Positions 1 through 22,167 of a stretch of 22,167 nucleotides of DNA are shown here, piece after piece (the first letter of the stretch is position 1; each line of letters starts with the position of its first letter). Source of the stretch: a virus; IMG/VR virus record IMGVR_UViG_3300042539_002307, positions 1-22,167 of that record. The stretch is one strand, 5' to 3'. The notes under the pieces are model-generated. The model was not told the DNA's origin, ran no database searches, and worked only from the letters and a program-made list of their open reading frames with translations. The position numbers were made by a program, and so were the translations under genes.

Positions 1-2789
1 TCACTGTCATTGACAGCACCATCCAAGCTGCTAACTGGCGTTTCATTGATAGCTTCGTAACGTCCAGGCAAGTTACCTGAACGCATGTAAGCTTCGTTGT
101 TCAAGTTGTTGTTGGGGCGACGGTGTGCTGGAACAAATTCACCACCTTGTGCTCTAACCAACCACTGTACATAACCAGCACCATACCATGAGTATTCTAC
201 TCCCAACATCTGCATTTTGTTAGCATCAATAGTAAAAGCACTGGGACCAGTTCCGTCCAATGGATCAATATTGAAATCAGCTTGAACCACACGAATTTCT
301 TGACGCAACGACATTTTGACTCTGGTCTCATTTTCGACGCCGCGGAATGTAGGCACCACAGTCATTCTGTTGTTGTCCAACACAGATGTTACACTGTGTG
401 TCATACCTTGAATCACCACAGTGTCGCCGTTGTTGAGTTGCTCTTGGAAACGGCATGTGCCATCACCGGTGACCAAGTTGGATCCCACACCTACCGAAAC
501 TAGTCCGGCCAGTTGTTGAGTACTTGATCGCTGAACTGCGTTGAGTGTCTGTCCGTTGTGTTCCCAGAACAATCCGTTTTGATCATCAAAGATACCAGCA
601 CGCACACTGGCGCCGTGCCATTGTGTAATACTAACTCGAGGTTGTTGTCCCAGTTCAGGTGCAACACTGCCCAGCGAGTTTTGAGCTTCAACTACAAAAC
701 TGGTGTCGCTGCCGATGCTGGTCACTGTATAATCTGTATCGTTGTAGCCAGAAGTGGTAACTCCGCTGATAGTGATTGTGGCTCCAGCGTTTAGACCGTG
801 CTCAAGATCTGTAGTAACAGTAATGTTGCTACCAACCACTGTACCACTTGCAGTCAAAGCTGCAATGTCAAACGTTGGCTTGAGCATGGTACCAGATGTG
901 AACAAGATACCTTTACCAGACTGATAACGGAAGTATTTCTTGGTTTGTCGAACAGCGGCAGCACCTCTAGTGGGCGTACCTGCTGCCAGTACAACACCGC
1001 CGTCGAACGGTCTTGGCAAGAATGCTGCGTTGCTACGCACGTTGATAGCACCAGCAATGGTTCCGCTTACTGCGGCACCTGCTTTGGCAGTGTAGGTAAA
1101 TGTAGTAGTACTAGGAACAGCAGTAACAAAGAAACTGCCAGTTGCATAAGCAGCATTGGTGCCTGAACTCAAAGCAACCAAAATTGGTGTTCCTGGGACC
1201 AGGCCGTGAGCATAAGTGGTAGTTACTGTGATAGTGCTAGGAGTCAACCCATCACTCACAATGCTCACAATGTCAAGATCTGCACCAGTGTAAGGGAACG
1301 CCTGTCGTACCACACTGTCGTATTGGTTCAATGGATACCCTGGTGCAAGATTTGGTAGTCTACGTGGATAGTATGCAAAGTTGTTGTCGTTGGCATAGTA
1401 AACATAGCTTACACCTTCGGCATTGCTGCTGGCTTGGTTTTGGTTGCTCACATATTCTCCAGCAGTTAAGCCGTGTGCATCAGCATTGACTGCAATTTGA
1501 GGAATGTTGGTGTTGCCAGTAGCGTCATAGATACCAGTCATACGGATCACAGGAGATCCAACACCGGCTGCTGACAATGCAGTAGTATTGAATTGCCCAC
1601 GTGCAATGGTTTGAGTTCCGTTGACTGCTGTGCTTACTGCACTCATGTTAACTAACTCAACGTTGCTGCTGAGTCTCTGCATCACTGTGCCAGACACAAA
1701 ACTGTTTGCTGGTGATGTGTTGTACCAACCGCGAGTGAGTTGCAGTGTAGTACCATCTGTAACTTCGTAGACTCTTGCAATTTCAATGTTATTGACTGCA
1801 AAAACATCGTTGCCAATGGTGATGTTTGCTGATCCACCGTTGGATTGGTTTGACTGTCTTACAACTGTAAGAGCATTAGTTGAAACGTTGGTAACTGACA
1901 TTACTTCGTAAACACCTGCTGAGTCAGTTTCAACAATGATATAGCTGCCATCTGCAATACCAGCTGCTGCCACGTTGGCGCAGTTGACTGTGGTTGTTCC
2001 AACGCTGGTGATATTTGCTACAGCAGTAGTAGTACCACCTGTGCCTGGATTTCCAATAATGATAATATTGTCACCTGCGCTCATGCCAGATGTGCTGGCC
2101 ACTGTGAATGTGCGTTCAGCAGAACTGTTGACGTTGGCTGTGAGTCTAGTACTTACAAAAGGTGTCACGTTACCTTGTGTTTGGCTGATTATCAATGCAA
2201 AATCGTTGGCCACCCATTGTGCAGTGCTTTGGTTTTGCAGTTTAACACTGGTGTCAATGTTGCTAGTGATCTGATCATCGCCGGCCAACATGGTGGCGTA
2301 GCCGTTGGTATTGATAAGAATGTCTGCACCAATGTCTTCGTAGAATGCCGGAATGTTGTTGATGGTACTAAAGTTTTGCCATTTGGTATTTTGTAGACCA
2401 TATTCAAAGTCAGCGTCAATCAAGGCCTGTGGATTGCTCACACGTTCACGACCAATTGCATCTAGACCAAAGCTCCATGGTTGCACTATCATTTCTGTAT
2501 TTTCAACCCAGATAGCCAATTTATCATTTGGATCCATTGATGAAGTGTCAGTGTCCAGCGTTAGAGTAGTTACTCCGTCATAGGCTGTGGGAAAGTCCGC
2601 AGTAACGCCAGCGGCGTAGGTTACTACACCACCCAGTGCTGGGTCTCCAAAATTATAGATGCAAATACCATCTGTTGTGTTGTAGACAGCTAAAAATTCA
2701 GGTAAATTTACCCGGCCTGCTATCTTGATAGTTCCTACGCCAGCAGTGCTAGGGGCAAAAATATAATTATTAACTCTTTGTCGTGCCAT
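1..2789 (-). CDS. Large virion structural protein, 3' end beyond left edge (at least 929 residues)
   Basis: The reading frame opens with ATG at 2789 (MARQRVNNYIFAPS) and I find no in-frame stop down to base 1, so the C-terminus lies outside the window. A GGAG ribosome site sits in the last codons of the preceding gene, which ends only 3 nt upstream. By my own translation, residues about 500-570 and 643-703 are two copies of a beta-rich module with the pattern ITVTT..HGL..G..I followed by a VTS/VTA.PSxTTF-like strand. Another HGLTAG element lies near residue 435. The visible C-terminal part contains EYSWYGAGYVQWLVRAQ and AHRRPNNN followed by YMRSGNLPGRYE. From memory these resemble a conserved large structural protein of T4-like marine phages, but its virion position is unknown to me. 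Its place at the end of the fibre run suggests a tail, baseplate or fibre-associated role. Confidence is high for coding and low for exact role. Confidence 0.85.
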   Translation of the reverse strand, partial: MARQRVNNYIFAPSTAGVGTIKIAGRVNLPEFLAVYNTTDGICIYNFGDPALGGVVTYAAGVTADFPTAYDGVTTLTLDTDTSSMDPNDKLAIWVENTEMIVQPWSFGLDAIGRERVSNPQALIDADFEYGLQNTKWQNFSTINNIPAFYEDIGADILINTNGYATMLAGDDQITSNIDTSVKLQNQSTAQWVANDFALIISQTQGNVTPFVSTRLTANVNSSAERTFTVASTSGMSAGDNIIIIGNPGTGGTTTAVANITSVGTTTVNCANVAAAGIADGSYIIVETDSAGVYEVMSVTNVSTNALTVVRQSNQSNGGSANITIGNDVFAVNNIEIARVYEVTDGTTLQLTRGWYNTSPANSFVSGTVMQRLSSNVELVNMSAVSTAVNGTQTIARGQFNTTALSAAGVGSPVIRMTGIYDATGNTNIPQIAVNADAHGLTAGEYVSNQNQASSNAEGVSYVYYANDNNFAYYPRRLPNLAPGYPLNQYDSVVRQAFPYTGADLDIVSIVSDGLTPSTITVTTTYAHGLVPGTPILVALSSGTNAAYATGSFFVTAVPSTTTFTYTAKAGAAVSGTIAGAINVRSNAAFLPRPFDGGVVLAAGTPTRGAAAVRQTKKYFRYQSGKGILFTSGTMLKPTFDIAALTASGTVVGSNITVTTDLEHGLNAGATITISGVTTSGYNDTDYTVTSIGSDTSFVVEAQNSLGSVAPELGQQPRVSITQWHGASVRAGIFDDQNGLFWEHNGQTLNAVQRSSTQQLAGLVSVGVGSNLVTGDGTCRFQEQLNNGDTVVIQGMTHSVTSVLDNNRMTVVPTFRGVENETRVKMSLRQEIRVVQADFNIDPLDGTGPSAFTIDANKMQMLGVEYSWYGAGYVQWLVRAQGGEFVPAHRRPNNNLNNEAYMRSGNLPGRYEAINETPVSSLDGAVNDS

Positions 2790-2792
2790 TTC

Positions 2793-3185
2793 TTAAACTC
2801 CAAATATGATTTGATTTGCTGTCAACGTTGCTTGAGTTGTCGTTGAAAACTTGTTGTAAGCGATAGTGCCATTGGCAATTTTACTGTTGGTCACTGTGCC
2901 ATCGCTGGGTGTTCCAGTATATAGTGTATCCCCCATTATGATTGCAAAGAATGGAGTTAGTGCGGCTGGCGGTGTGGTAAAGCTGATATTTGACCCGGAA
3001 ATACTAAACGCCACTCCTGGGTTCAAGACCACATTGTTCAAACTCACCATCATTGCATATGCAGTGGGAGGCGAAAACGATGTACCACCTACAGTGATAG
3101 GAAAAGTACTTGTACTTCCGTCAAACACCGGAGCATCCATGTATCGATACTGACCAATCTGAGGAGTATTACCTAAATATGCCAT
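2793..3185 (-). CDS. Small fibre-adaptor-like virion protein (130 aa)
   Basis: This 130-residue protein starts MAYLGNTPQIGQYRYMD. Its first 85 or so residues follow the same plan as the N-terminus of the 1,275-residue fibre encoded just upstream: M-x-Y-I/L-G-x-x-P, a GST/GTGS turn, an aliphatic strand with a V-L-N or V-L-I element, a PG, an I-x-F-x-x-P-P element, then an I-x-G strand. Residues about 93-120 (SDGTVTNSKIANGTIAYNKF) look like the linker that usually leads into a fibre shaft, but the protein stops soon after, so it is an adaptor without a shaft. It begins 9 nt after the preceding stop with GGAAA as ribosome site, and its own final codons supply the GGAG for the next gene. It is probably a short tail-fibre or baseplate attachment protein. 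Family function is inferred. Confidence 0.8.
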   Translation of the reverse strand: MAYLGNTPQIGQYRYMDAPVFDGSTSTFPITVGGTSFSPPTAYAMMVSLNNVVLNPGVAFSISGSNISFTTPPAALTPFFAIIMGDTLYTGTPSDGTVTNSKIANGTIAYNKFSTTTQATLTANQIIFGV

Positions 3186-3194
3186 TTTGTTTCC

Positions 3195-6100
3195 TTATAG
3201 TCTTCCGACCACTACTTCAATTATGCCAGACTCACCAGCAAAATCTTCCAGTGCCTTGCCGATCACCGACCCCATAGTAGGAGTAGCACATGCCATTGCA
3301 TGTCCATTGCCTGCTGACACCATCATTTGTCCTTTTCGAACTGGACCAATGACTTTGGTTGGTACTCGACCAGTTAGAGCCAGCGCTACTGCGCAATCAC
3401 AGTTCAATGTTGAATTCATCAAGTGAGCTGGGTTTGTTGAAACTACGCCAGCAACTGCTGTGTCACCGACTGTGTCAGCGATAGTAACTTCTTGGTTGCC
3501 ACCAAACACCAGCACAGTACCTGGCTCATAGTCTGCATCAGCGCAATACATTTCAGCCAAGTCAGCATACTGTGCTGTGGTTGCTTTGGCAAACACTGTA
3601 TTAAATGTAGTAGTTGAGCTACCAATGTTACCAACACCCGATGACGCACCGTTGACAATGGCTGTTGCGGCTGCACCTGAGTTGACTGTAATAGCACCGC
3701 TTACAGCCAAACTTGTTAGCGTACCAACCGAGGTAATGTTACCTTGAGCTGCGGTAGTGACTGTGCCAGCTGTGGTAGCAGATGTTGCAGAACCGCTCAA
3801 TGTTGCAGTAATAGTACCAGCACTAAAGTTACCGCTAGCATCACGAGCAACAACTTTGCTTGCTGTGTTAGCCGATGTAGCGTCAACTGCGGCTGTAACC
3901 GCAGAACTACCGTTATAGCTAGTACCAGTTAAGTAACTACCCAATGTTAGTGCGTTGGTTGCTGTTGCGGTTACTGTAGCAGAACCTCCAAGAGCAATAG
4001 CAGTACCGTTAACAGTAATACTTGCATTTGCTAATCTAGCCTGAGCCAGTGTACCTGAACTAATGTTGGTAGCACTGATGCTAGTAACGTTAGCACCAGA
4101 ACCGTTTAGTGTTCCAATGAAGTTGCCAGATGTAGTATTACCAGTGACTGCTAAACTACCCAAAGTACCAACACTTGTAATATTAGTTTGTGCAGCCGTA
4201 GTTAAAGTACCTACAATGCTAGTACCTGATAGGTTACCGCCACTGATATTACCTGTCACGTTCAGACTACCCAAAGTACCAACACTTGTAATATTAGTTT
4301 GTGCTGCGGTTGTTAATGTACCTACAATGCTAGTGCCTGATAGGTTACCGCCACTGATATTACCTGTCACATTCAGACTTGTCAAGGTGCCAACACTTGT
4401 AATGTTAGCTTGTGCAGCATTAGTTACTGTGCCAGCTGTAGTAGCACTAGTAGCAGCACCACTCAGTGTGGCAGTAATAGTATTAGCAGCAAAGTCACCC
4501 GCCGAGTCACGCAAGACTACAGTACTGGCACTGTTTGCAGTGTTTGAGCTCAATGTAACTGTGATATTGCCTGTGCCTGCGCTGGTACTGATACCAGTTC
4601 CGCTGACGGCAAGATTGCCAACACCTGTGTGAGTGTGGTCTGCCCTGGCATATTTTAAGCTGGTTCCAGTTGCAGCACTGCCAATATTGGTAGGGGTAAC
4701 TGCACTGGCCTGTCCAACAACATATGCTGTAGTTGCCAATTGATTGGTATTGGTATCGGCTGCCGCATTAGCAGATGTAACAATGTTGGTAAATGAGCCA
4801 TTGTTGGCAGTAATGTTGCCGCTAGCACTGACGCTGGCTCCAATTACTGCCGCAGTAGCAATTACGTTGCCGCCGGCTACGTTAGCAGTAGACGTGATGT
4901 TGCCCGAAGATGAAACTAGTCCTGCAGTAACTAGATTTCCACCAGTGACGTTGCCGGTCGCGTTGACTGCACCGCCTGCTGATACCAAACCATTGGTTAC
5001 TAAATTGCCGCCAGTGATATTGCCACTGGCGCTGATGGTTGTAGCACCTGTAATTGTACCAGTTAGCGCCAGGCTTGCAGCATTGACTGCTCCAACTGCG
5101 GTGATTAAACCACCTGTGACGATGTTGCCACCGTTAATGTTTCCAGTTGCAGTAACTAGTCCCGCAGTGCTAATGTTACCACCATTGACGTTACCTGTGG
5201 CGCTGACGTTTCCAGTTGCGCTGAGTGTAGTTGCTGCGATTACATTGGCACCAGTAATGTTTCCACCAGCACCGCTGGTAACTAGATTTCCACCTGTAAC
5301 GTTGCCACTTGCACTTACAACACCTGTAACTGCTAGGCCAGTAGTGGATACTACCAATACGTTGGCTGTGCCAGCACTTTGAACAGTTACATCTCCGTTG
5401 GCTATGACTCGAACGTTGGATGTACCGTTGGTCAATTGAGAAGTGCTCAATCCAGACAGTAAAGATCCGTTACCAAGGATAAAGTTACCAATAATATTAC
5501 CAGTTGCACTGACCAATCCACCTGTGTTGATGTTGCCGCCAGTGATATTGCCTGAACCACTGATTGTACTACCGCCAATAATTGCACCAGTTGCAGAAAC
5601 AATTGCAGTGTTGACGTTACCGCCGTTGATGTTGCCAGTTGCAGAAACAAATGCAGTGTTGACGTTACCGCCATTGATGTTGCCAGTTGCACTAACCAAT
5701 CCACCTGTGTTGATGTTACCACCAGTAACATTACCCGAACCGCTTATTGTGGTACCAGAGATTGCAGTACCTGTTATTGTACCGCTAGATGTAATCAATC
5801 CGGTGCTGATAATGTTTCCGCCGGTGACGTTGGCTGCACTAGTAATGTTGCCAGTAGCAGTAATCAACCCACCAGTTTGAACGTTGGCTGCAATAACGTT
5901 GCCTGCGGCACTGAGGTTACCAGTAGTAGTCGCTAAACCTGTGATAGCTACACCAGTTGAACTTACTGTAGCAATTGTGGTTCCGTTTACGTTTTGAACA
6001 ATGCTGCCGTTAGGGCTAGCAATAATTACTTTGGAATTGGCATTGAGAATTTGTGTGGTATCTGTTGAAATACCTGTTAGAGCACTACCATTACCTACAA

Positions 6101-15687: not shown

Positions 15688-18555
15688 TTAGATTCTGCCT
15701 ACCACAACTTCAATGGTTCCAGAGTCGCCGTCGAAGTTTTCTAAAGCTTTGCCAATTACTGATCCAGTCGATGGATCTGATTCTGCTCGTGCTCGGCCGT
15801 TACCAGCAGACACCATCATGTCACCTTTGCGTACTTTTCCTGTTACCATGCAAGGTACTCGTCCTTGCAAGGCAACTACCGCAACATGGTCAGAATCTAG
15901 TCCAGCATTCATTAGATAGCTAGGGTTAGCAGATACCACGCCAGCTACTCGTCGATCGCCATCGCTGGTACTTTGAGTTACTTCATGGTCCCCGCCAAAA
16001 CTTACAACTGTGCCTGGTGTGTATTCAGCATCTGCGGCATATTTTTCTGCCAAGTCGGCATACAGCGCTGTGGTTGCTGTAGCAAACACTTGGTTAAAAT
16101 AGCTAGAAGCACTGCCAATGTTGCCTACAGCATTGGTGCCAGTATGAGTAATGTTGTTGACTGACAGGGTACCAGTTGTTCCAGATGTGATCAAATTGCC
16201 ACTAGTGACATTGCCAGTAACACTCAAACTACCCAGCGTGCCCACTTCGGTAATATTAGTCTGGCTTGCTGTTGCAACAGTACCTATTAGATTACCGCCG
16301 CTGATGTTGGCAGTTGTAGTAATGTTGGCTGTGGTGTTTATTGCACTTAGAATGTTGCCACTCAGGCTCAATATACCAGTGTTGACGTTGCCGCTTGTGA
16401 TGTTGCCAGTTACACTAACTGTAGCACCTGTATGAGTAGTGGCATTAACGTTGGCTCCGCCCAAGATGTTGCCACCAGTAATGTTGCCAGTAACACTCAG
16501 AGAACTCAGTGTACCTACTGATGTGATGTTGGTTTGTGCTGCCGTGGTCAATGTGCCCACAATGCTGGTGCCGCTTAGGTTGCCGCCAGTGATGTTACCA
16601 GTGGCACTGATTGTTGTGCTTGACGTCACAGCACCAACCAACGGACCATAAAATGCTGCTGCTGTAATATTGCCCGATGCGCTCATGCGCCCGATGTTTA
16701 CGTTACCAGAGCCGTTGGGAGTCAACACAATGTTGGCATTGGCTGCTGACGTTTGAATATCCAGTTGCGCACTGTCAACGATAGCGCCACTCAATATCAA
16801 ATTACCACCACTGATATTGCTTGTTGTTGACAAATTTCCAGAAGTAATGTTGCCTGTTACTGCCAAACTGGTCAATGTGCCCACAGATGTAATGTTGGCC
16901 TGAGTAGCGTTGGTTACTGTGGCTGCTGTGCCGCTGACATTACCAGTAACGTCGATAACATATGTTCCGCTCAAACGGTCAGAACTCACTGTACCAGATG
17001 TTAATGCGTTGGCGTTGATATTGTTGGTCAGCAGAGTGCCAATGTTAGCAGTGTTTGTTACCAACAAGTTAGCAGTGTTGATATTGCCAGTGGCGCTGAC
17101 ATTCCCTGCGGTATTAACGTTGGCTGCTGCAATGTTGCCAGTTACACTAACTGCACCAGTGAAGTTAGCTCCGCCATCATACAATACCATGATATTACCA
17201 ATAGCATTGATTGTAGCAAAAATATTACCATTTGAGCTGGCCACGGCCATAACTGTAGTGCCATTGGCAATTTGTTGAGCAGCAACGTTGGAAACCGCAG
17301 TGACGTTTGATAAGAAGCCACCGTCGCCAATAAAGAAGCCACCCGATGTAGTAATGTTGCCCACAGCAACAAGCTGCCCTGATGTGTAAACTGCACCAGC
17401 ATTGACGTTGCCAGTTGCGCTTACTAAACCACCAGTGGCTATGTTAGCACCAGTAACGTTACCAGTGGCACTAACATTACCGCTTGATGCAATCATTGCT
17501 GCGCTGACAACGTTGCCAGCACTGAAGTTATTGGCAATTATGTTGCCTTGTGCTGTGACCACTCCTTGAGTGATTAAATTATCGCCGGTGATGTTGCCCA
17601 CAGCAGTGATCTGAGCATCACTGACAATGTTTCCGCCACGAATATTGCCTGTGGCGGTAACGCCAGCAGCGCCAGCAGTGACGCCTCCACCAGTTATGAC
17701 ATTACCACCTGTGATGTTGCCAGTTGCGCTGACTTGACCTGCTGTATTAACATTACCGCCACCAATGTTGCCAGTGACCGTGGCAAGACCTGCTGTAATC
17801 AAGTTGCCGCCAGTGATGTTACCAGCTGCTTGTAGTGTACTGCTAAAATAACCTGTTCCTGTCACACCAAAAGTAGTAGTTGGGTTTGCATTAGCAACAC
17901 CAACGTTCCCTGTTGGCAGAATAGTCATCACCACAGCTGGAGTAGTGGTTGTGCCTGTTAAAATTTCTACTTTGGCATTGCCTGCTGCGTCAGTGTAGGT
18001 AGATCTGATTGCTGTAGCTACTCTGGCACCCGGAGTTGTGGCATCGTTTGAATACCATTCTACTGCTCCGATTACAGTATTGGCCAGGCCTGTAGTGTCT
18101 GTGTCTGAAAATCTAATAGTAGGTTGAGTTACACTAGAATCTCTAGTGATTGTTACGTTACCAATTGTGTTGACGTTGCCGCCATTGACGTTACCAGTAG
18201 CACTTACAATACCGCCTGTGTTGATATTGGCACCTGTTATGTTACCAGTTGCAGAAGCTACTCCTCCAAAATATGCACCAGTATTGGCAAAAACAGCAAC
18301 GTTTGATGTGCCATACACTCCCACAGTAACATTACCGCCCAGTCCAGACGACAACACCTGAACGTTGGAGTTGCCTGAGAAAATTTGGCTCACTGATAGG
18401 TTACCTGTTAAACTGGTGTTACCAGTAACAGTTAAATTGCCATCGACTATGACATCAGCTTGTGCATTGCCCAGAGCGCTGGTTAGAGTAATGCTGTCAC
18501 CAGAATTCAGCGTTTGTATGGTGTAGTCGCCGTTGACAATTTTATAAGTAGCCAT
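15688..18555 (-). CDS. Repetitive tail-fibre-like protein with C-terminal domain (955 aa)
   Basis: The protein starts MATYKIVNGDYTIQTLNSGD and passes through a DVIVDGNLTVTGN element into a shaft of SATGNITGGN-type repeats. Residues about 138-225 are a non-repetitive insert (PTIRFSDTDTTG, VIGAVEWYSND, VEILTGTTTTPAVVMTI, ending TGNVGVANANPTTTF), of a kind common in phage fibres. The C-terminal domain, residues about 822-955, begins FNQVFATATTALYADLAEKY and contains FGGDHEVTQSTSDGD, RVAGVVSANPSYLMN, GRVPCMVTGKVRKGDMMVSAGNG and GSVIGKALENF before ending EVVVGRI. It is paralogous to the end of the 1,275-residue fibre. Such domains often assist trimer assembly or form the receptor-binding tip, but which applies is not visible. 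The ATG directly follows the stop of the 194-residue gene, with AAAGGAT as ribosome site and an AATAAATA late-promoter candidate 18 nt upstream. Confidence 0.88.
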   Translation of the reverse strand: MATYKIVNGDYTIQTLNSGDSITLTSALGNAQADVIVDGNLTVTGNTSLTGNLSVSQIFSGNSNVQVLSSGLGGNVTVGVYGTSNVAVFANTGAYFGGVASATGNITGANINTGGIVSATGNVNGGNVNTIGNVTITRDSSVTQPTIRFSDTDTTGLANTVIGAVEWYSNDATTPGARVATAIRSTYTDAAGNAKVEILTGTTTTPAVVMTILPTGNVGVANANPTTTFGVTGTGYFSSTLQAAGNITGGNLITAGLATVTGNIGGGNVNTAGQVSATGNITGGNVITGGGVTAGAAGVTATGNIRGGNIVSDAQITAVGNITGDNLITQGVVTAQGNIIANNFSAGNVVSAAMIASSGNVSATGNVTGANIATGGLVSATGNVNAGAVYTSGQLVAVGNITTSGGFFIGDGGFLSNVTAVSNVAAQQIANGTTVMAVASSNGNIFATINAIGNIMVLYDGGANFTGAVSVTGNIAAANVNTAGNVSATGNINTANLLVTNTANIGTLLTNNINANALTSGTVSSDRLSGTYVIDVTGNVSGTAATVTNATQANITSVGTLTSLAVTGNITSGNLSTTSNISGGNLILSGAIVDSAQLDIQTSAANANIVLTPNGSGNVNIGRMSASGNITAAAFYGPLVGAVTSSTTISATGNITGGNLSGTSIVGTLTTAAQTNITSVGTLSSLSVTGNITGGNILGGANVNATTHTGATVSVTGNITSGNVNTGILSLSGNILSAINTTANITTTANISGGNLIGTVATASQTNITEVGTLGSLSVTGNVTSGNLITSGTTGTLSVNNITHTGTNAVGNIGSASSYFNQVFATATTALYADLAEKYAADAEYTPGTVVSFGGDHEVTQSTSDGDRRVAGVVSANPSYLMNAGLDSDHVAVVALQGRVPCMVTGKVRKGDMMVSAGNGRARAESDPSTGSVIGKALENFDGDSGTIEVVVGRI

Positions 18556-19140
18556 TTACAGATCCTTTGTGTTATTTATTCTGTTCAAGAACTCTGTCAT
18601 GGGCAGGGTGGTGTAGTTTGCAACATCATCAAATTCTTTGATGTGCGCTGTGGTGTCGCCAAACACTCTAACAAAGGGTATTTTGGGATAATCACGCATG
18701 ACTGTGACCAGTTGCCTAGCCCAGTTGCCTGAATATGTGGGCACTGCTGAGCTTTTTTTGTAAAACTCTGTGTTGGCGTACACATTGTTGAATCGATTGT
18801 TTACTGGTCCCATGTCAAAACCCACAAGATATACAATTTTAACGTTATCAAAACAGGCTATGCTAGCAGCGATAGGTCCCGAACTGTAACCAAAATACTT
18901 TTGCGGAACAGGATGTGCTCCTAGATGTGGTATAGGCCTGCGTGTGTAAAATCTATTGTGTTTGGCATATCCTTCAGTTTGAATACGCTCACTGATGGGT
19001 TTGTCTGTGCTGACTAAAACGGTGGGCGTAAAATCTCTGTAGAGAGCATTACAGCCGTAGATGTTGCCCAAATGACGCATGTTGTCTAAATCAACTTGCT
19101 GTCTACTAACGCCATTGCCTAATACAAATGCTACAGTCAT
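18556..19140 (-). CDS. Putative sugar/nucleotide-handling enzyme, GNGxSR family (194 aa), possibly MptE/DUF115-like
   Basis: This is one of the few non-structural-looking proteins here. Visible motifs are an N-terminal beta strand ending in GNGVSR (residues 8-13), YGCNALYRDF (28-37), LVSTD (42-46), SSGPIAASIA (86-94) and a hydrophobic strand IVYLVGFDMG (102-111). This Rossmann-like order, a glycine-rich loop, GCN, D after a strand, SGP and then GxD, recalls the MptE/DUF115 group, which includes the Maf flagellin-modification proteins; it also recalls small phage proteins annotated loosely as glycosyltransferases. I make that assignment from memory and with limited confidence. Its ribosome site GGAGG lies inside a terminator hairpin, and its stop TAA is directly followed by the ATG of the 955-residue fibre. 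The position suggests a role in modifying fibre proteins or surface glycans. Confidence 0.8.
   Translation of the reverse strand: MTVAFVLGNGVSRQQVDLDNMRHLGNIYGCNALYRDFTPTVLVSTDKPISERIQTEGYAKHNRFYTRRPIPHLGAHPVPQKYFGYSSGPIAASIACFDNVKIVYLVGFDMGPVNNRFNNVYANTEFYKKSSAVPTYSGNWARQLVTVMRDYPKIPFVRVFGDTTAHIKEFDDVANYTTLPMTEFLNRINNTKDL
18573..18580 (-). promoter_or_regulatory. Late promoter candidate AATAAATA for the 955-residue fibre gene
   Basis: The minus strand reads AATAAATA at 18580-18573 inside the last codons of the 194-residue gene. RNA starting near 18567 would carry AAGGAT followed by the ATG at 18555. Spacing to the gene closely matches that of the giant fibre promoter. Confidence 0.55.
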
Positions 19141-19173
19141 AAAAAATCCTCCCAGTAGTTATCTAGGAGGATT
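19141..19173 (-). terminator. Rho-independent terminator/attenuator containing a ribosome binding site
   Basis: On the minus strand an 8-bp stem AATCCTCC/GGAGGATT (arms 19173-19166 and 19152-19145) with a 13-nt loop is followed by four more T (six in a row with the end of the stem) and then the ATG at 19140. It lies 17 nt after the stop of the 264-residue gene and has the form of an intrinsic terminator. The GGAGG in its 3' arm, 7 nt before the ATG, is the only good ribosome site for the 194-residue gene, so the hairpin could limit both read-through and translation. Confidence 0.72.
19148..19152 (-). promoter_or_regulatory. Shine-Dalgarno GGAGG of the 194-residue gene, within a hairpin
   Basis: The minus strand reads GGAGG at 19152-19148, 7 nt before the ATG at 19140, which fixes that start. 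The same bases form the 3' arm of the terminator stem, so they would be base-paired in the folded transcript. Confidence 0.75.
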
Positions 19174-19189
19174 CTGGGGTTACGCCAAA

Positions 19190-19984
19190 TTAAGATGTAG
19201 CTTTAACAACCTGTGCCAATTGTAGACTGCCGTTTTGAGCGTCAGCACCACCAATGATTTCAGCACCAGACCATGTAACTGTGCCTTCGTCTGTGAAGAA
19301 GTTAACAGGATAGAAGTTTTCGCCACTCTGGATGTTTGTACCAGCATTGCTGTCACTGTAGTTGCCATAAGTCATTCCGTTCCAGTCACGGATCCACTTG
19401 TTGGTGATATAACTAGCATATACAGCAGAACTGTCACCAACTGAGAACTCAATACTCATGTAACCAGCGTCAGGCGTGCCGGTGTTTTGTAACACACATT
19501 GCCCAACTGGATATGCTGTGCCCGAACCTGAACCAACGGCTGTGGCAGTGAAAATGTCACCAACAGTTACATTTGTTCCTGCGCCAACTGCGGCCCAATC
19601 TGTTGTGCCCACGCTAGCAACACTGTAGGCTTGGCCAACAATAAAACTCTCATCGGCTGTGGTACTAGCAACATAAGCTACCAAGAACTTGTGTGAGCCT
19701 TTTTGGCGGATGATGCGACCGTTGCCAGCACCTGTAGAGCTGCCATCAGCTAACTCAATGTTAACTTGTGGAAGAATAATAGGGTTTGTTGCCGTAGTTG
19801 CTGTGGTACTCAAACCACCAACAACGCCTAGATAATCGCTAGCGCTCAATGTGCTAGCACTGTTATAAACTGGATCTGTTAAGCTACCAAAGTTAGGGAA
19901 GCCGACATCAATGCCAACTGCTGCGCCAGGTGCGCCGGAACCTTGATTGGTGCCGTATTTTTGTATTTTTAGGGGTCTTGCCAT
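19190..19984 (-). CDS. Virion-type protein, possibly capsid-associated, with inserted TTDW module (264 aa)
   Basis: The protein starts MARPLKIQKYGTNQGSG, followed by VGFPNFG and SDYLGVVGG, a pattern I recall from small structural proteins of T4-like marine phages. RIIRQKGSHKFLVAY (90-104) and CVLQNTGTPDAGYMSIEF (163-180) look like two parts of one conserved core. Between them, residues 114-157 are a self-contained module (VGQAYSVASVGTTDW, then a GDIFTATAVGSGSGTA strand) that turns up in many phage virion proteins and seems to be inserted here. There is no signal peptide. It has the strongest expression signals in the window: a perfect TATAAATA 83 nt upstream and AAGGAG 7 nt before the ATG, with a terminator after the stop. 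High-copy expression and closeness to gp23 suggest a capsid decoration or other abundant virion protein. The function is inferred, not recognised. Confidence 0.82.
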   Translation of the reverse strand: MARPLKIQKYGTNQGSGAPGAAVGIDVGFPNFGSLTDPVYNSASTLSASDYLGVVGGLSTTATTATNPIILPQVNIELADGSSTGAGNGRIIRQKGSHKFLVAYVASTTADESFIVGQAYSVASVGTTDWAAVGAGTNVTVGDIFTATAVGSGSGTAYPVGQCVLQNTGTPDAGYMSIEFSVGDSSAVYASYITNKWIRDWNGMTYGNYSDSNAGTNIQSGENFYPVNFFTDEGTVTWSGAEIIGGADAQNGSLQLAQVVKATS

Positions 19985-19991
19985 TTGATTT

Positions 19992-19997
19992 CTCCTT
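19992..19997 (-). promoter_or_regulatory. Strong ribosome binding site AAGGAG of the 264-residue gene
   Basis: The minus strand reads AAGGAG at 19997-19992, 7 nt before the ATG at 19984. It is the best unobstructed Shine-Dalgarno match I saw in the window and supports that start. Confidence 0.75.
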
Positions 19998-20066
19998 GTA
20001 GAAGCCCAATGCGGGTTCTAGCCGCTACGCAGATGGTCTGCATAAGTCGCCGAATTGCGAACAGTG

Positions 20067-20074
20067 TATTTATA
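20067..20074 (-). promoter_or_regulatory. T4-type late promoter, TATAAATA
   Basis: The minus strand reads TATAAATA at 20074-20067, an exact match to the T4 late promoter core recognised by gp55 sigma. The start site would fall about 6 nt downstream, giving a leader of about 75 nt before the ATG at 19984. It lies in the 131-nt gap between the divergent 264-residue and TPR-glycosyltransferase genes. I saw no equally good promoter for the rightward gene in this gap. Confidence 0.75.
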
Positions 20075-20115
20075 GAAAATAGCAAATACCGCCACTGGCA
20101 GCATTAAATATCCGT

Positions 20116-21264
20116 ATGAATCCCCACGAACTAATCGAAACTGGTAATCAATATCGATCCAGCAATCAACCCGAAAACGCTTTATCTTGTTATGCACAAG
20201 CATTTGCGCAAGACCGTAACTACGCCGCGGCATTCAACAACTACGGCAACGTACTGCGTGAAGTAGGTGAGCCACAAGGTGCTATTCCGTTCTTACAAAG
20301 GGCTATCCAACTTGATCCTACCAACGTCACTGCACAATTTAATTTGTCAATTGCTTATTTGCTAGCAGGAGATTATGACCGTGGTTGGCCACAATACGAA
20401 TGGCGCTGGAACTATGAACACTTATCTGGTACTATGCCTCCATTCCAGAAGCCACGTTGGCGCGGCGAAGATCTAAAAGGCAAAACTATCCTTGTAGTAG
20501 GCGAACAAGGACACGGTGATAACATCCAATTTGTGCGCTTCTTGTACAACCTGCATGTTATGGGCGCAGAAATCATTCTGCAGGTCACTGATGGGCTTGT
20601 GCCTCTGTTGGGCTCTAGTTCTATTATCAAACGTGTTAGCGGATACGATTACTCGGTGGATGACTTTGATTACTGGACTCCTATAATGAGTATTCCTGGT
20701 ATCCTTGGTGTTACTTTAGAAAACTTGCCGCGGCCGGTTAACTATTTGAACGCAGATACTAGATTGCAAAAACAGTGGCTTGACTACTTTGGTCCAAAGA
20801 AAAAAATGCGTGTGGGCTTTAGCTGGAGTGGCCGCAGAGATAACTGGCTCAACAACCACAAAGGCATGCCATTTGCAAAGATTGTAGACTTAATCAAAGC
20901 TAACTCACAGTACGAATGGATCAACTTGCAAGCAGATTGCACAACAGAAGAGGAGGCCACACTCAAAGAACTAGGAGTACATTGCTTGCCGCCTAACCCA
21001 AACATGTGGGCAGATACTGCTGCTCAAATGATGCACATGGATGTGGTTGTTAGTGTAGACACTGCGGTAGCTCATTTGGCTGCTAGCTTGGGACGCCCAA
21101 CTTGGCTCATGTTAAATTGGTTCGCAACCGATTGGCGCTGGGGCGTTAAGCGTGAAGACAACCCTTGGTACAGCACCATGCGCATATTTAGACAACCTGC
21201 AATGGGAGATTGGGATAGCGTGAACAAGAAAGTTACCCAATTCCTCTCGTGGTTTAAGGTGTGA
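20116..21264 (+). CDS. TPR-domain glycosyltransferase, GT9/OGT-like (382 aa)
   Basis: This is the only convincing plus-strand gene. Residues 3-100 hold about two and a half tetratricopeptide repeats (NPENALSCYAQAFAQD-type, then AAAFNNYGNVLREVG..GAIPFLQRAIQLDP and AQFNLSIAYLLAGDY). The rest is a two-domain glycosyltransferase fold of the heptosyltransferase-like type found in bacterial TPR proteins: VVGEQGHGDNIQFVRF (128-142), VGFSWSGR (233-240), and the nucleotide-sugar binding region SVDTAVAHLAASLGRPTW (313-330), then DWRWG, NPWY and FRQ. All expected landmarks are present and length is normal for such fusions, so it looks intact. Bacterial relatives sit in polysaccharide or flagellin-glycosylation loci. 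Here the TPRs may dock a virion protein such as a fibre. The ATG at 20116 lacks a clear ribosome site, suggesting weak expression. It runs opposite to all its neighbours and could be a later acquisition. Confidence 0.9.
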   Translation: MNPHELIETGNQYRSSNQPENALSCYAQAFAQDRNYAAAFNNYGNVLREVGEPQGAIPFLQRAIQLDPTNVTAQFNLSIAYLLAGDYDRGWPQYEWRWNYEHLSGTMPPFQKPRWRGEDLKGKTILVVGEQGHGDNIQFVRFLYNLHVMGAEIILQVTDGLVPLLGSSSIIKRVSGYDYSVDDFDYWTPIMSIPGILGVTLENLPRPVNYLNADTRLQKQWLDYFGPKKKMRVGFSWSGRRDNWLNNHKGMPFAKIVDLIKANSQYEWINLQADCTTEEEATLKELGVHCLPPNPNMWADTAAQMMHMDVVVSVDTAVAHLAASLGRPTWLMLNWFATDWRWGVKREDNPWYSTMRIFRQPAMGDWDSVNKKVTQFLSWFKV

Positions 21265-21265
21265 G

Positions 21266-21274
21266 TGTTATAAT
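21266..21274 (+). promoter_or_regulatory. Candidate extended -10 promoter (TGTTATAAT) after the glycosyltransferase gene
   Basis: The plus strand reads TGTTATAAT, a perfect extended -10 element (TGnTATAAT), just after the stop at 21264. No -35 match is present at normal spacing. It would start RNA near 21281, where no protein gene follows on this strand, hence the small RNA proposal. Confidence 0.4.
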
Positions 21275-21282
21275 ACAAGAAC

Positions 21283-21290
21283 AATAAATA
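21283..21290 (+). promoter_or_regulatory. NATAAATA motif on the plus strand
   Basis: AATAAATA occurs here on the plus strand. It fits the relaxed late-promoter form NATAAATA and would start an RNA near 21296, ending at the shared hairpin. The surrounding DNA is very AT-rich, so a chance match is quite possible. Confidence 0.3.
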
Positions 21291-21397
21291 TCATTTTATA
21301 TTACTGTATAAAAGCAAGGTCGTTAAACTTTATATTATCTGCCCCGACTCCTCCTGGATTGACCTGCCTGGATGTTGGGGCATTCTTATACTCAACA

Positions 21398-21421
21398 AAA
21401 AACCTGCCGAAGCAGGTTTTT
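21398..21421. terminator. Bidirectional hairpin terminator between converging genes
   Basis: AAAAACCTGC (21398-21407), a CGAA loop, then GCAGGTTTTT (21412-21421) make a 10-bp symmetric hairpin with T runs on both strands. It ends the leftward capsid mRNA 22 nt after its stop and the rightward glycosyltransferase mRNA about 135 nt after its stop. This keeps the abundant capsid transcript from running antisense into the glycosyltransferase gene. Confidence 0.88.
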
Positions 21422-21443
21422 GATTTTCCATCCTGGGAATGGA

Positions 21444-22167
21444 TTAGCTGAAAGACAAGTTGCTAACAGCAATTTCGCCAACGTAGTCACCTGCGTTACC
21501 AAAGCTGCTTGCAGTGTTGGTAAGTTCGATGTATCCGTAACGAGTCATGAAGCTCACGACTGGTTCGAATGTTGTTGGGTCAAGAACAACACCACTGCTC
21601 ATCAATGGAATGTATGGGCAGTAGAATGCAGGAGCGTCAGCTTCTGAAGAACCCTTGTAACCAACCAACACAGGTGTTGTGTCGCTAGCATAAGAGTCAA
21701 CGAACACACGCATAGCGCCGTTCAATGTACCAACAAACTTGGTGTTGGTAGGAGCTTCAAATGTACCTTCTGTAGTACGAGCAAATGCAGAAGTAGTTGC
21801 AGATTGCAACACTGTCAATGCAGCGCTAGAAACAACAGCGTAGTTACCTGCGCCACGACGTGTACGTTGGGCGATCAAGTTAGCAACACGGTTGATCAAC
21901 ACTGCCAAAGCGGCGTGTTCGTCACCAACGAATGTAGCAGTACCAGAAACGGTAGCTTGGTTGTATGTGAACTCAGTAGAAGCCAAGCTGCGTAGGGACA
22001 GGAGAATCTCCTGGTCAATTTCAGCTGTAATTTCTTGAGCCAATGCTGCCATGATTTCGGCTTCAACGTCGATACCATGCATGGCTTGTGCGTCTTGAGC
22101 AGATTCAAAAGTCCAACGTGCTTGCAACTTACGAGTCTTGGCTTCAACAGCTTGCTTCAAGATCTGG
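21444..22167 (-). CDS. 23: Major capsid protein gp23, C-terminal half (5' end beyond right edge)
   Basis: The frame is open to the right edge, so the N-terminus lies outside the window. A TTG at 22160 is internal, since in-frame codons continue upstream. About 240 residues are visible, roughly half of a T4-type gp23. Clear family signatures are VEAKTRKLQARWTFESAQDA, then AMHGIDVEAE, EITAEIDQEIL, RRGAGNYAVVSS, a VFVDSY strand, VLVGYKGSSEADAPAFYCPY and PVVSFMTRYGY. It forms the hexameric shell of the T4-like head, and in T4 it is trimmed by the gp21 protease near the N-terminus, outside this window. Its strong terminator follows 22 nt after the TAA, fitting a very abundant late mRNA. The assignment rests on sequence recognition and is secure. 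Confidence 0.95.
   Translation of the reverse strand, partial: QILKQAVEAKTRKLQARWTFESAQDAQAMHGIDVEAEIMAALAQEITAEIDQEILLSLRSLASTEFTYNQATVSGTATFVGDEHAALAVLINRVANLIAQRTRRGAGNYAVVSSAALTVLQSATTSAFARTTEGTFEAPTNTKFVGTLNGAMRVFVDSYASDTTPVLVGYKGSSEADAPAFYCPYIPLMSSGVVLDPTTFEPVVSFMTRYGYIELTNTASSFGNAGDYVGEIAVSNLSFS

Follow-up and report, generated by a model that had tools for sequence, protein, structure and literature searches.

A freshwater lineage of T4-like giant phages is proposed here to glycosylate its own virion proteins, a proposal for which the chances appear evenly balanced. It may further be, although this is put forward more tentatively, that this widespread jumbo lineage possesses a late module of two enzymes dedicated to virion glycosylation, with a fixed place between capsid and fibre genes and built of flagellin-type parts, namely a FlmG-like TPR-glycosyltransferase (GT) and a minimal GT42/Maf-like transferase lacking the usual histidine.

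Organization and conservation of the locus

The window corresponds to a virus record of 22 kb (22,167 nt of IMGVR_UViG_3300042539_002307). The GT gene (product of 382 aa, positions 20116-21264, plus strand) lies opposite in strand to every late gene around it: the C-terminal part of the gp23 major capsid protein gene at the window edge (21444-22160, minus strand; Pfam Gp23, 6e-76), the gene of a probable virion protein of 264 residues (p264; 19190-19984, minus strand), the gene of a Rossmann-like 194-residue putative glycosyltransferase, a remote relative of GT42, Maf and MptE proteins (s194; 18556-19140, minus strand), and the fibre genes, starting with the 955-aa repetitive fibre gene adjoining s194 (15688-18555, minus strand). 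The preliminary description had placed the 194-, 264- and 382-residue reading frames at these same positions, and had noted that s194 and the 955-aa fibre gene abut, stop to start, as TAA-ATG, which is found at 18553-18558. The closest isolates by the gp23 C-terminus are jumbo T4-like phages (Phosso, 76%; PA5oct, 72%; CBB and GAP32, 68%), and the relatives that share the block include a contig of 300 kb.

Of about 90 loci from many freshwater contigs, nearly all repeat the order gp23, reversed GT, p264, s194 and a virion-protein gene. When p264, s194 and gp23 were used as other baits against bait bias, s194 was found in 25/25 and GT in 22/25 of the distinct p264-bait loci with room, and p264 in 21/21 and GT in 17/21 of those recovered with s194. 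With these independent baits s194 and p264, constant neighbours, are thus nearly always paired, with GT alongside in approximately 80-90%. GT and its divergent neighbour p264 are on opposite strands in all 223 of 223 cases, and p264 lies 5' of s194 in 158 of 167 distinct cases with room. The picture from gp23 as bait (29 loci extending 6 kb or more downstream) is looser: GT is present in 8/29 and s194 in 11/29, p264 and s194 occur without GT in 5/29, p264 and GT without s194 in 2/29, and none of the three is found in 15/29. Since these loci may hold either enzyme alone or neither, GT and s194 make up a pair that is frequent without being obligate, and both are missing from many phages whose gp23 is close.

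Both enzyme genes are under purifying selection, with dN/dS of about 0.03-0.09 in most computable pairs and 0.21 in one divergent s194 pair; these low ratios, together with the presence of relatives in many contigs, argue that both are real genes. Between the window and one relative (L005), gp23 is 99% identical with a dS of 0.31, as against dS of 1.15 for the adjacent s194 and 2.4 for p264, a contrast that suggests that the neighbouring cassette has recombined or been exchanged. The slot between the GT 3' end and gp23 (21265-21443 in the window) is a variable insertion site (e.g. in L092, L100 and L090). It was considered as a sugar island and rejected as such, its cargo being mixed: NUMOD3/HNH homing endonucleases, a YadA-head protein, a methyltransferase, an unknown 391-aa protein and, in a single lineage (L090 and near-identical relatives, there without s194), a GT17 gene.

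The TPR-glycosyltransferase

The first enzyme had been recognized as a TPR-glycosyltransferase from the sequence, and profile and structural searches agree. Pfam TPR and Glyco_transf_9 domains are matched in 26/26 relatives; in the window protein TPR_2 scores 9e-12 and Glyco_transf_9 matches over a short stretch at 22.8 bits, barely over the cut-off of 22. The AF2 model (pLDDT 89.9) shows the paired helices of the N-terminal TPRs, followed by a C-terminal GT9-like GT-B domain. Foldseek retrieves SPINDLY (E=3.5e-10), O-GlcNAc transferases and ADP-heptose transferase II (1psw; E=5e-9, TM 0.50/0.57), with 1psw and 3tov as the best TM matches. The GDNIQFVRF and DTAVAHLAASLG regions, previously described as intact, are indeed in frame, and their key residues belong to the many that are invariant across 26 diverse relatives, including HGDN 133-136 (with G134-D135) and VDTA 314-317 (with D315-T316).

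The protein therefore resembles GT41 enzymes (OGT, SPINDLY) and GT9 heptosyltransferases, matched by Foldseek at E of 1e-10 to 1e-6, and shares with GT9 the Pfam match and the GD and DTxxxHLA motifs, whereas it has fewer TPRs than OGT or SPINDLY. An architecture with TPRs at the N-terminus and a GT-B domain at the C-terminus is also that of FlmG, the transferase responsible for flagellin O-glycosylation in Caulobacter (PMC7591256); in contrast to FlmG, GT is phage-encoded, shorter (382 versus 596 aa) and placed in a capsid/fibre block. Bacterial relatives, mostly weak, were found at only four loci of one scan, and their genomic context was uninformative.

The small Rossmann-like protein s194

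A sugar-transferase-type fold for s194 is suggested by its single-domain AF2 model (pLDDT 88.6), for which the best structural match in Foldseek is the GT42 sialyltransferase CstII (2drj; E=2e-3, probability 1.00, TM 0.47). Sequence comparisons point the same way from further off. Besides a PHROG family of unknown function (1.8e-33), s194 weakly matches PHROG 4603, alpha-2,3-sialyltransferase (E=0.0042), and the one PDB entry matched by sequence profile, a GT42 sialyltransferase (E=0.8), aligns with it at the GNG..S and CN motifs. With hhalign, one CST-I protein gave P=4e-4 and MptE/Maf domains gave P=0.003, as compared with 0.06-0.7 for unrelated controls against the same profile, all being raw pairwise P-values accompanied by low HH probabilities. 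The motifs GNG..S, CN and IYL.G.D align with those of CstII and the Maf PF01973 domain, and s194 has motifs that are invariant across 32 diverse relatives.

No Pfam or NCBIfam family is reached by s194. PF06002 (CST-I, GT42) gave no match at E<=1 with the window protein or its relatives, and the MptE/Maf family PF01973 was matched, below cut-off, by 4/32 members at E of at least 0.039 and not by the window protein. The catalytic histidine of CstII, His188, has no evident counterpart in that the s194 alignment contains no invariant or nearly invariant His; the CST-I protein has a His that hhalign places near G138-N139-W140 of s194. Membership of GT42 thus fails, because a conserved His is missing and the profile stays below cut-off. 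The central PF01973 domain of Maf proteins has been reported to be CstII-like (PMC11339370). The initial tentative assignment of s194 as MptE/Maf-like holds at the level of the superfamily, and not at that of the family. Unlike CstII and Maf, s194 comprises only 194 aa, and the flanking domains of Maf are absent. It is best regarded as a putative, remotely recognizable GT42/Maf-superfamily-like transferase, whose similarity to GT42 lies below normal significance.

Thiamin pyrophosphokinase is the second match of the model in Foldseek (E=3.6e-3, probability 0.99), and this, with the few weak MptE-like Pfam matches and the missing invariant His, would fit a pyrophosphokinase-like (thiamin/MptE) or otherwise nucleotide-binding protein, leaving GT as the only sugar enzyme of the locus. 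The top matches by both structure and profile are nevertheless to GT42 and are aligned at the three conserved motifs, and such a non-glycosyltransferase role for s194 is considered rather unlikely.

Relatives of s194 also occur in Pelagibacter phages, where they are not beside fibres but are either flanked by uvsY and uvsW or close to ssDNA-binding and metabolic genes. Pelagibacter phage HTVC008M (L368) has three, at 752-4983 and at record positions 77489-78319, adjoining genes for a carbamoyltransferase and phytanoyl-CoA dioxygenase-like proteins as well as uvsY/uvsW.

Promoter and RNA elements

Several conserved promoter and RNA elements surround GT. A minus-strand TAAATA core is present in 60/60 distinct p264/GT intergenic sequences; in the window it forms part of TATAAATA (20067-20074, minus strand), an exact match to the T4 late promoter consensus serving p264. 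On the other strand, a second TAAATA is located 4-7 nt 5' of the GT start, again in 60/60 distinct sequences, being represented in the window by the late-promoter-like element ATTAAATA (20103-20110, plus strand), 5 nt from the start. In T4 late promoter geometry transcription begins at about the position of the GT start codon, and a leaderless GT mRNA is accordingly to be predicted. Other TAAATA elements of the window precede the 955-aa fibre gene by 18 nt (AATAAATA, 18573-18580, minus strand, late-promoter-like, within the s194 3' end), the 2529-aa fibre gene by 23 nt and a 110-aa gene by 69 nt. No enrichment of TAAATA was seen along the whole 300-kb contig, so the case for late promoters rests on positional conservation.

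Directly 3' of the p264 late promoter element, the freshwater-2 structured RNA (RF02980; 19982-20062, minus strand) takes up essentially the whole p264 5' leader, with an Rfam score of 66.8 bits against a gathering threshold of 49.9 (E=2.6e-9). Eight related loci were searched: it is in the same place in six (L030, L051, L090, L158, L170 and L179) and absent from L145 and L177, both without p264. The gap between p264 and s194 holds a terminator-like covarying hairpin followed by a U-run (19138-19173, minus strand), in which 6/11 pairs have changed on both sides with 99.6% pairing retained. The loop is conserved as TAnnTAC, the 3' arm contains the s194 Shine-Dalgarno sequence, the hairpin with its U-run abuts the s194 start codon, and the hairpin is unique within the 300-kb contig. 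As it is kept after p264 in L197 and L096, where s194 is missing, it is most simply explained as a p264 terminator, beyond which little transcription would reach s194; such a small dosage would suit an enzyme.

Candidate acceptors

The fibres had been proposed, next to the capsid, as substrates, with their composition in mind, and the 955-, 1275- and 2529-aa fibres are in fact rich in Ser, Thr and Asn (N 10-13%, T 15%, S 9-11%, with G 15-19%). The genes that follow s194, compared across 182 distinct s194 genes with families called from the N-terminal pattern and by eye, usually start within a few dozen bases (with a gap of 0 nt in 102) and usually encode a homologue of the fibre N-terminal region or a gp10-like protein. 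Among roughly 120 complete cases, about 40 encode proteins of 196-223 aa in which repeat motifs number a few at most. With about one-third of these products short and poor in repeats, it is p264 and a short domain of attachment type that constantly accompany s194, and not Ser/Thr-rich repeats. The argument for repetitive fibres as the substrate loses weight on this account, and also because N-glycosylation sequons, tried and discarded as a fibre signature, occur no more often than the motif read in reverse (in the 955-aa fibre 37 forward versus 38 reversed, in the 2529-aa fibre 138 versus 119). The proposed link between enzymes and fibres is likewise loosened by the finding of GT and s194 without each other.

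As the fibre-specific argument weakens, p264 would rise as a candidate acceptor, and it may be an equally good target. Over residues 113-158 it matches a virion structural protein of a cyanophage. An inserted domain of p264 was examined as a marker of GT substrates (61/98 with GT, 6/17 without) and set aside as too lineage-confounded.

Proposed role and alternatives

In the scheme proposed, where folds, motifs, purifying selection, synteny and late-type elements are observed and catalysis, donor, acceptor and benefit to the phage are inferred, the locus would constitute a module for protein glycosylation that is expressed late. In GT, the TPR domain would hold the acceptor protein while the GT9-like GT-B domain passes on to it a sugar taken from a nucleotide-sugar donor, in the manner of FlmG with Caulobacter flagellins; s194 would probably add or extend a second sugar, or may work alone in phages without GT. 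The acceptors would most likely be phage virion proteins, with p264 and the protein encoded right after s194 as prime candidates. Sugar donors may be made by the host or partly by the phage, large contigs of the lineage (L137, L138 and L140) carrying nucleotide-sugar epimerases. In the sugar clusters of these contigs genes for a DegT-type aminotransferase, a glycosyltransferase and radical SAM proteins appear, by eye, to lie nearby. Phage synthesis of CMP-nonulosonate was rejected, no CMP-sugar synthetase (PF02348) being matched in 12 contigs, mostly fragments. Against a virion module stand this lack of PF02348, the lack of an invariant His in s194 and its sub-significant similarity to GT42, the separability of the enzymes, the many phages of closely related gp23 that have neither, the Pelagibacter phage relatives that are not beside fibres and the lack of TAAATA enrichment over the 300-kb contig.

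The chief rival as regards the target is the host surface: acting late in infection on LPS, capsule or flagella, the enzymes might block superinfection or the loss of progeny to debris. Phage glycosyltransferases altering host antigens are well known, GT9 enzymes, including the closest structural neighbours of GT, are typically LPS heptosyltransferases, and sugar-metabolism genes are found elsewhere in the large contigs. The TPR plus GT-B architecture, however, points to protein acceptors, the late-type promoter element and the fixed place in the capsid/fibre block speak for another use, and no membrane or transport partner is recognizable beside GT or s194; modification of the host surface is accordingly judged unlikely. 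In T4 itself, the best known role of glycosyltransferases is the glycosylation of DNA, and GT might be thought to act on hypermodified bases of the phage DNA. GT has a TPR domain, which the DNA glucosyltransferases of T4 lack, as well as a late-type element and a capsid/fibre location, all of which makes a DNA target most improbable. The late, virion-linked role suggested at the outset fits both synteny and promoter elements; indeed, it is the synteny and the TAAATA before every GT that speak more for late action directed at the virion than for host takeover.

Relation to known systems and significance

Glycosylation of virions by the phage itself is already known, and what is new is the enzyme pair, no earlier description of a TPR-GT with a GT42-like partner having been found in the literature searched. 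As cited in PMC12619734 and PMC12363180, mycobacteriophages glycosylate their own capsid and tail tube, and the latter source refers to Freeman et al. 2023 for virion glycosylation in Che8, Corndog and Myrna. These phages resemble the present proposal in using phage-encoded glycosyltransferases, which there act on capsid and tail tube; they differ in that their targets have been demonstrated and that both hosts and phages are unrelated. In another aquatic jumbo lineage, a 2025 survey counted several putative glycosyltransferases among the core genes and discussed the same possible roles (PMC12619734).

The orphan cis-regulatory RNA freshwater-2 gains a phage context as the leader of a virion-block gene, and a minimal family of glycosyltransferases could be defined by s194. 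Few phages have been shown to glycosylate their virions, and a conserved single-copy module, with late-type elements and adjacent candidate acceptors, would make such glycosylation testable in an abundant group of freshwater phages.
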